NCBI GenBank assembly: GCA_022769125.1
Contig: JALEKN010000063.1
Coordinates: 1 to 57,549, forward strand
Direction of reading: 5' to 3'
DNA length: 57,549 nt
DNA from: Agathobacter sp.
GTDB lineage: Bacteria > Bacillota > Clostridia > Lachnospirales > Lachnospiraceae
In this document: positions 10,931 through 12,727 of the stretch, in pieces
Position numbering within the stretch: the stretch's first letter is position 1
Layout of the letters: every line of letters starts with the position of its first letter
Notes under the pieces: model-generated
Told to the model about the DNA's origin: nothing
The model's input: the letters and a program-made list of their open reading frames with translations, nothing else
Databases searched by the model: none
Made by a program: the position numbers and the translations under genes

Positions 10931-12601
10931 TTATAACTTAAATGAACTCTTCAAGGACACAATACGGTTAAATACTGGCTGTCCCGGCTCAGAGTCCTTT
11001 ACATCCGCACAGAAAAATCCCTGACGGACAAACTGAAAACTATCATATGCTCTTGCTTCTGCAAGCGCCGGCTCCACCATACAATGATCCAATACGGTAA
11101 GAGAATTCAGGTTCAGATTTAAGCTTCCGTCCTCATTGTATACGCCAAGCTCTTCGTTGACGATATTCTCATATAAACGTATCGTAACCTGCTTTGCGTG
11201 TGCCGCAGATACCCAGTGGATCGTTCCCTTTACCTTTCTGCCATCCGGGCTGTTTCCGCCCTTAGATGCAGGATCATAGGTACAGTGAATCAGCGTGATA
11301 TTACCGTTCTCATCCTTCTCAAAGCTTTCACACTTTACAAAATATGCGTTCATCAGGCGCACCTCATTCCCCGGGAACATACGGAAGTATTTCTTTGGAG
11401 GCTCCTCCATAAAGTCATCACGTTCAATATAGAGTTCACGCGAAAATGGCACCTGTCTGCTGCCAAGCTCCGGATTCTCCAAATTGTTCTCAACAGTAAG
11501 ATATTCTGTTTCTCCCTCCGGATAGTTGTCGATCACAACCTTTACCGGATCAAGAACCGCCATCATGCGGGAGCGCTTCATCTTCAAATCCTCGCGGATG
11601 CAATACTCGAGCATCGCATAATCTACAGAGCTGTTTGCTTTGGAGATACCACAAAGATCCACAAACTTCTGGATAGCCTCCGGGGTATAACCACGGCGGC
11701 GGAGTGCTGCAATGCTGACAAGGCGTGGGTCATCCCATCCGTCAACGATCTTGTCCTCAACAAGCTTCTTGATATATCGCTTACCGGTAACAACGTTTGT
11801 CAGATACATCTTGGCAAACTCAATCTGCTTTGGTGTCTCCTCAGGTGAATTCTTATAGCCAAGTTCCATAACCACCCAGTCATATAGTGGTCTGTGGTCC
11901 TCAAATTCCAATGTACAAATGGAATGGGTGATTCCCTCAATCGCATCCTCAATCGGATGTGCAAAGTCATACATCGGGTAGATACACCACTTGTCCCCGG
12001 TGTTGTGATGGGTCATATGAGCTACACGGTAAAGGATCGGGTCACGCATATTGATATTGGAAGATGCCATATCGATTCTGGCGCGCAATACCTTGCTGCC
12101 ATCCTCAAACTCTCCGTTCTTCATGCTTTCAAACAGCGCAAGATTCTCCTCTACGCTTCTGGCCGCATACGGATCATCCTTTCCCGGCTCGGTAAGAGTG
12201 CCACGATACTCACGGATCTCATCCGCGGATAAATCGGATACATATGCTTTTCCCTTCTAGATCAGCTTGATTGCTGCTTCGTACATCTGGTCAAAAGAGT
12301 TGGATGCATAGAACAGATTAGCCCCGTAATCAGCTCCCAGCCACTTAACATCTGCCTGGATTGACTCTACGAACTCTGTCTTCTCATTGGTCGGATTGGT
12401 ATCATCAAACCGGAAATTAAACTGCCCGTTATATTTCTTTGCCAAACCATAGTTAAGTAAGATGGACTTGGCATGTCCAATGTGCAGATATCCATTCGGC
12501 TCCGGTGGGAAACGTGTCCTTACCGTCGTGCAATGTCCCTCCGCTAAGTCTTTCTCGATGATCTGCTCAATAAAATTCTTGGATACTACTTCATTTTCCA
12601 T
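10931..12601 (-). pseudogene. glnS: Glutaminyl-tRNA synthetase interrupted by in-frame TAG
   Basis: A 556-codon glnS frame carrying one amber codon, number 115, at 12259-12257. The first part ([10 protein letters not shown] start at 12601, GGAGG seven bases upstream) has [14 protein letters not shown] with the HIGH box at 40-43. After the stop the same frame continues without a lesion: [37 protein letters not shown], then the C-terminal beta-barrel anticodon domain. The expected sequence at the stop is LI-x-KGKAYV with x usually charged or polar. The usual MSKR signature reads VVTGKR here, as I recall for clostridial homologues. Neither part alone would make an active enzyme. It could be a recent nonsense mutation, a sequencing error, or a readthrough site; downstream in-frame initiation (ATG 12124) has no good ribosome binding site. 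Confidence 0.85.
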
Positions 12602-12649
12602 TTCTTTTCCTCCACCGCTCCGCTTCGCCGCCGGAGCCATCATAGTGCA

Positions 12650-12685
12650 AAACGAGGCTGATGCACGCATGCAACAACCTCGTTT
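12650..12685 (-). promoter_or_regulatory. Leader hairpin of glnS
   Basis: An 8-bp stem (AAACGAGG with CCTCGTTT) encloses a 20-base loop containing a GCATGC self-complementary core. It lies in the transcribed leader between the glnS promoter and start codon. There is no U-tract, so it is not an intrinsic terminator. Function unknown. Confidence 0.4.
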
Positions 12686-12698
12686 CTGCGATATTCCC

Positions 12699-12727
12699 AT
12701 TATAAAATCCAACACAGTCCTTGTCAA
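12699..12727 (-). promoter_or_regulatory. Consensus sigma-A promoter for glnS
   Basis: A perfect TTGACA, 17-base spacer and TATAAT on the minus strand, about 100 bases upstream of the glnS ATG. It implies strong transcription of the interrupted gene. Confidence 0.85.

Follow-up and report, generated by a model that had tools for sequence, protein, structure and literature searches.

Conserved genes of prokaryotes may contain in-frame stop codons for several reasons, sequencing errors and pseudogenes among them, according to the excerpted text of PMC7918605, in which a stop was kept only if at least two genomes had it in common. For the enzymes that supply Gln-tRNA, the excerpted text of PMC3927822 gives Arg358 as specific to discriminating glutamyl-tRNA synthetase (GluRS), reports that a change of this residue relaxed discrimination in T. 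thermophilus and not in H. pylori GluRS1, treats as nominally discriminating those genomes that have glutaminyl-tRNA synthetase (GlnRS), GatCAB and a single GluRS, and refers to a pseudogene of GlnRS in a '...cellulosum' species. The DNA analysed here (the window) was one entire contig (C8, 57,549 bases) of the draft genome of Agathobacter sp. (GCA_022769125.1; 2.75 Mb, 68 contigs, 92.9% complete), designated G000, with other G numbers used for congeners. The glutamine–tRNA ligase gene of this contig, glnS, is interrupted by an in-frame TAG (Table 1). This codon is very probably an isolated nonsense substitution of a single base, present in one assembled genome and without decoding function.

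The presence of a stop codon inside an otherwise normal glnS was confirmed. Translation of 12601-10931 on the minus strand gave a TAG at codon 115 of 556, as the original prediction had it; the frame is uninterrupted before and after this codon and closed by a final TAA. GlnRS models were matched by both halves of the gene, and the C-terminal part alone scored 557.5 bits with TIGR00440 (curated cut-off 425.8), which assigns it to GlnRS. The sequence was aligned to that of congener G017 over positions 1-555, interrupted by the one TAG, and the G017 enzyme was aligned over positions 2-552 to E. coli GlnRS chains of solved structure. No second copy of glnS was found in G000, the other, weak match being part of gltX. 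A scan of 457 kb of G000 for in-frame stops flanked by coding signal returned 20 candidates that were judged by eye; the glnS TAG had the top summed coding score, so the frame is not open by chance. Eighteen candidates were either shadow frames or the ends of genes whose downstream neighbour lies in the same frame, and the only other one was a lone TAA (L199:3646) in a gene for a family-3 solute-binding protein (SBP_bac_3; L199:3491-4329, contig C42). The consensus promoter and ribosome binding site (RBS) predicted for glnS were found as an exact TTGACA-17-TATAAT and a GGAGG before the ATG. Flanks described at first as fully conserved proved to be less so: substitutions occur at Lys72, Tyr102 and Pro498, sites that are conserved in 135, 135 and 133, respectively, of the 135 relatives in the alignment.

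The codon was then read in relatives. Full-length glnS was available from 60 of 62 genomes of the genus (G020 and G081 were left out, the gene being split or cut by contig ends), and the column of codon 115 held 51 Lys, 6 Arg, 2 Gln and the one stop of G000. A further 80 glnS loci, mostly from Lachnospiraceae, had no internal stop at any position; four of these duplicated genus members and were dropped as duplicates. A stop conserved in orthologues, the mark of programmed readthrough, was thus seen at codon 115 in 0/59 other full-length genes of the genus and in 0/80 further loci. The site is variable across relatives (Lys, Arg, Gln and one Asp); in the E. coli chain, the residue aligned by way of G017 is Asn 115. 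Where relatives have Lys it is encoded by AAA or AAG, and TAG is the sole stop one step from AAG, so the 'amber' identity of the codon carries no message. A lone stop also occurs in the glnS of G003, in this case a TAA at codon 211 (contig C118; L016, L182); the corresponding residue of the E. coli chain is Tyr 211, which presumably contacts glutamine. Because this stop sits at another codon, codon 115 is not a conserved recoding site. Among the assemblies examined, the TAG is private to G000 and stands at a variable position.

TAG is an ordinary stop in G000. Of 171 long open reading frames (ORFs) in the 457 kb sampled, 48 ended in TAG, 94 in TAA and 29 in TGA, and release factor RF1 is intact (535.5 bits, no internal stop). 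Use of TAG by at least five neighbours had been noted beforehand; 7 of 12 window ORFs checked end in it, two more than had been listed, including the gene after glnS and those for proteins of 1419 and 680 amino acids. The others we take to encode a kinase, a response regulator, an argC-like and a thioesterase-like protein. General reassignment of TAG, already excluded in the original prediction, is ruled out by this stop use, the intact RF1 and the neighbouring ORFs. Pyrrolysine at codon 115 was considered separately and ruled out, as no PylS exceeded the cut-off: three matches of about 24 bits were obtained against a cut-off of 178 in the genome, at 92.9% completeness.

Readthrough of the amber codon by a suppressor or near-cognate tRNA, which would give complete GlnRS in an amount that might be regulated, was weighed on the same data. 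There is one stop only, the remaining frame, promoter and RBS are in good order, the genus does not seem to lose glnS easily, a tRNA-Gln with anticodon CTG is among the 29 tRNA hits, and the excerpted text of PMC7918605 argues that prokaryotes often read through in-frame stops. Against this stand the absence of the amber from the relatives examined, the lack of PylS above the cut-off and, more weakly, a search for a tRNA with anticodon CUA that returned none in 29 hits, a set that is itself incomplete (no gene found for Asn, Asp, Cys, His or Trp). No stimulatory structure was detected in the 90 bases 3' of the TAG (fold z 0.40; 128 of 200 shuffles folded at least as well), and about 28% of proteins (48/171) would acquire extensions if suppression were strong. 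Readthrough is therefore very unlikely. A feedback loop with a suppressor tRNA, as suggested earlier, found no positive support, the amber being unconserved and no structure following it. A narrower form of the idea, in which low-level readthrough of a real amber by tRNA-Gln(CUG) or tRNA-Lys(CUU) would tie the amount of GlnRS to tRNA charging and act together with the terminator-like leader as an autoregulatory circuit of one species in an essential synthetase, is more improbable still. Separate synthesis of the two parts, followed by their reassembly into a split GlnRS, is hardly credible; family signatures are kept in both parts, but no in-frame ATG, GTG or TTG occurs before codon 160 and no evident Shine-Dalgarno sequence is found there, so that 45 residues would be missing. 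Internal restart 3' of the TAG was rejected on the same absence of a start codon before codon 160.

An isolated nonsense codon, whether a mutation or a base error, had been among the options proposed at the outset and remains the best explanation, the stop being private, TAG a standard stop and a second gene of G000, that for the solute-binding protein, broken by a lone TAA. We infer that an error of base calling or assembly consensus at codon 115 is its somewhat favoured cause; a genuine recent loss-of-function allele is ranked after it, as possible and less probable. If the TAG is genuine, translation would halt after 114 residues and GlnRS activity would be lost. The frequency of comparable lesions was estimated from stops inside five genes of the genus, counted within one aligned piece, so that frame changes are invisible to the counts. 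In-frame stops were present in glnS of 2/62 genomes (G000 and G003), in asnS of 1/60 over the cut-off (G002, contig C40, L181: a lone TAG located 26 codons from the end of the match), in valS of 0/61 and rpoB of 0/50 over the cut-off, and in leuS of 0/53 over the cut-off; the figures for asnS, valS and rpoB refer to the matches listed. This amounts to about 3 stops in 211,000 codons, or about 1.4e-5 per codon (codon totals summed from lists, that for rpoB being rough). Since 222 of the 4995 possible single changes in glnS create a stop, about 1.1e-4 errors per base would yield this rate.

Frame breaks offer a second comparison. The rpoB of G033 (L269, contig C94) and the valS of G025 (L270, contig C25) switch reading frame in mid-gene, two incidental observations that a second analysis confirmed. 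Both genes are indispensable to a cell, so assembly error is the plainest cause and the breaks are probably best read in this way, which supports the same reading for glnS. These breaks shift the balance slightly from a real allele towards error. The G000 assembly also has gaps, gltX being cut by contig ends and tRNA genes for five amino acids not being found. Moreover, glnS was found in 62/62 genomes of the genus, broken by a stop in two and in pieces or cut in two others; GlnRS thus looks needed in the genus, which favours error rather than a tolerated null but is not decisive.

Two observations weigh against error as the cause. The glnS of G000 has private changes in 6 of 342 columns invariant in the others (5/338 in a second set), compared with 1/499 in valS and 2/299 in leuS of the same genome, which may weakly suggest relaxed constraint; within the two glnS sets, more private changes were seen only in G001 (12 and 11) and G011 (8), both of which have no stop, and the stop-bearing gene of G003 had 4. 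All three nonsense cases are confined to glnS and asnS, the two synthetase genes for which GatCAB might in principle substitute (probability 0.024 from their share of the codons, for a grouping made post hoc), a clustering that leans to real, tolerated mutations. An old pseudogene would account for the three replacements at nearly invariant positions; the single stop, the unchanged frame and a profile score (against 76 outside sequences) that ranked 42nd of 60, within the range of stop-free congeners, make decay of this age highly improbable.

Whether a genuine loss of GlnRS could be tolerated depends on the indirect route to Gln-tRNA through GluRS and GatCAB. Intact gatC, gatA and gatB were found in one cluster of G000, as the original prediction had proposed to look for. 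The suggestion that the nonsense codon is tolerated by way of GatCAB held as far as the enzyme is concerned, but its cluster includes a non-discriminating AspRS, so that its evident role is in Asn-tRNA; AsnRS is also present in G000. In the same cluster, one open frame at L184:1962-2966 (contig C64), between the AspRS gene and gatA, contains a GNAT acetyltransferase domain together with GatC and is a possible fusion. Only one GluRS was found, and its gene is divided between the ends of contigs C56 and C2. It has retained Arg at the position of T. thermophilus Arg358, a feature seen in 9/9 congeners read and pointing to a discriminating enzyme that would reject tRNA-Gln; this reading is based on an alignment of a congener, the C-terminal GluRS piece of G000 and PMC3927822. 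Comparison with solved non-discriminating enzymes gave no contrast from the five alignments listed in each of two comparisons, the site being poorly aligned in one of them.

Tolerated loss is further favoured by the absence of any GlnRS match in 4 of 24 genomes belonging to other families within the order (3 of the four at least 97% complete), by the distribution of nonsense codons over the five genes (glnS twice, asnS once, none in valS, leuS or rpoB, within the matches listed for asnS, valS and rpoB) and by the GlnRS pseudogene mentioned in the excerpts of PMC3927822. It is opposed by the evident job of GatCAB in Asn-tRNA, by the retention of glnS in all 62 genomes and by the Arg of the sole GluRS found, although in the excerpted account of PMC3927822 this residue was not decisive in H. 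pylori. On balance, loss of GlnRS compensated by GluRS and GatCAB is unlikely, though less so than readthrough, and its share lies within that of the real allele and is not additional to it. The '...cellulosum' species we take to belong to Sorangium.

The region upstream of glnS was analysed for regulatory elements (Table 1). The exact consensus promoter of G000 is followed by a terminator-like hairpin and a T run that precede glnS (window 12727-12648, minus strand; fold z -3.46). This layout, with the hairpin 11-18 bases after the promoter, was also found upstream of glnS in G017, G079, G005, G078, G035, G016, G011, G012 and G003; of 113 upstream regions tested, 13 passed, comprising 10 distinct, 2 duplicate and 1 weak case. 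Letters of the stem vary while pairing is kept (CGGAG/CTCCG, CGGGG/CCCCG, CGAGG/CCTCG). The leader had no match in Rfam at the gathering score, and in an alignment of nine of the ten leaders (G035 left out) the stems were not in register. The element has the look of an attenuator or of a very short RNA.

Table 1. Coordinates of glnS, its parts and its leader in the window
Feature	Position	Strand	Basis
glnS, glutamine–tRNA ligase, 556 codons, interrupted at codon 115	10931..12601	-	translation and GlnRS models
In-frame TAG, codon 115, between ...AIKLI and KGKAYVS...	12257..12259	-	translation
N-terminal fragment, 114 amino acids, with HIGH region	12260..12601	-	GlnRS model match
C-terminal part, 441 codons and TAA; earliest in-frame ATG/GTG/TTG is codon 160	10931..12256	-	GlnRS model match
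RBS, GGAGG, 5' of glnS ATG	12609..12613	-	sequence
Promoter-like exact TTGACA-17-TATAAT	12699..12727	-	sequence
Terminator-like hairpin and short T run, glnS leader	12650..12685	-	fold

Two other leaders were observed in the window. From 52718 onward on the plus strand, a promoter-like site is followed by a strong terminator-like hairpin that may be an attenuator, the gene 3' of it presumably encoding a MATE-type transporter-like protein. At 50469-50392 on the minus strand lies a ZMP/ZTP riboswitch (60.4 bits), and the genes 3' of it we take to be IMP cyclohydrolase-like.

An isolated nonsense codon that arises by recent mutation or through an error in the sequence is an event of a known kind. 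Among the literature matches listed, no title dealt with an amber codon in glnS. The case calls for caution, as an error rate near 1e-4 per base predicts a solitary nonsense codon in a draft-genome gene that seems to be needed; if the TAG is real in the reads, the question becomes whether the genus makes Gln-tRNA without GlnRS. Pyrrolysine and other amber reassignment systems resemble the locus in having UAG where relatives mostly carry lysine, and differ from it in that UAG is here a normal stop, RF1 is intact and no PylS exceeds the cut-off. The in-frame stops in conserved prokaryotic genes treated in the excerpts of PMC7918605 are similar in that one stop lies in a gene otherwise looking selected, whereas the glnS TAG is common to no relative examined. 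With the bacteria of doubtful GlnRS in the excerpted text of PMC3927822, which mentions a pseudogene, G000 shares GatCAB and a possibly non-working GlnRS gene; its lesion differs in being one stop in one assembly, and its GluRS in carrying the Arg linked to discrimination.
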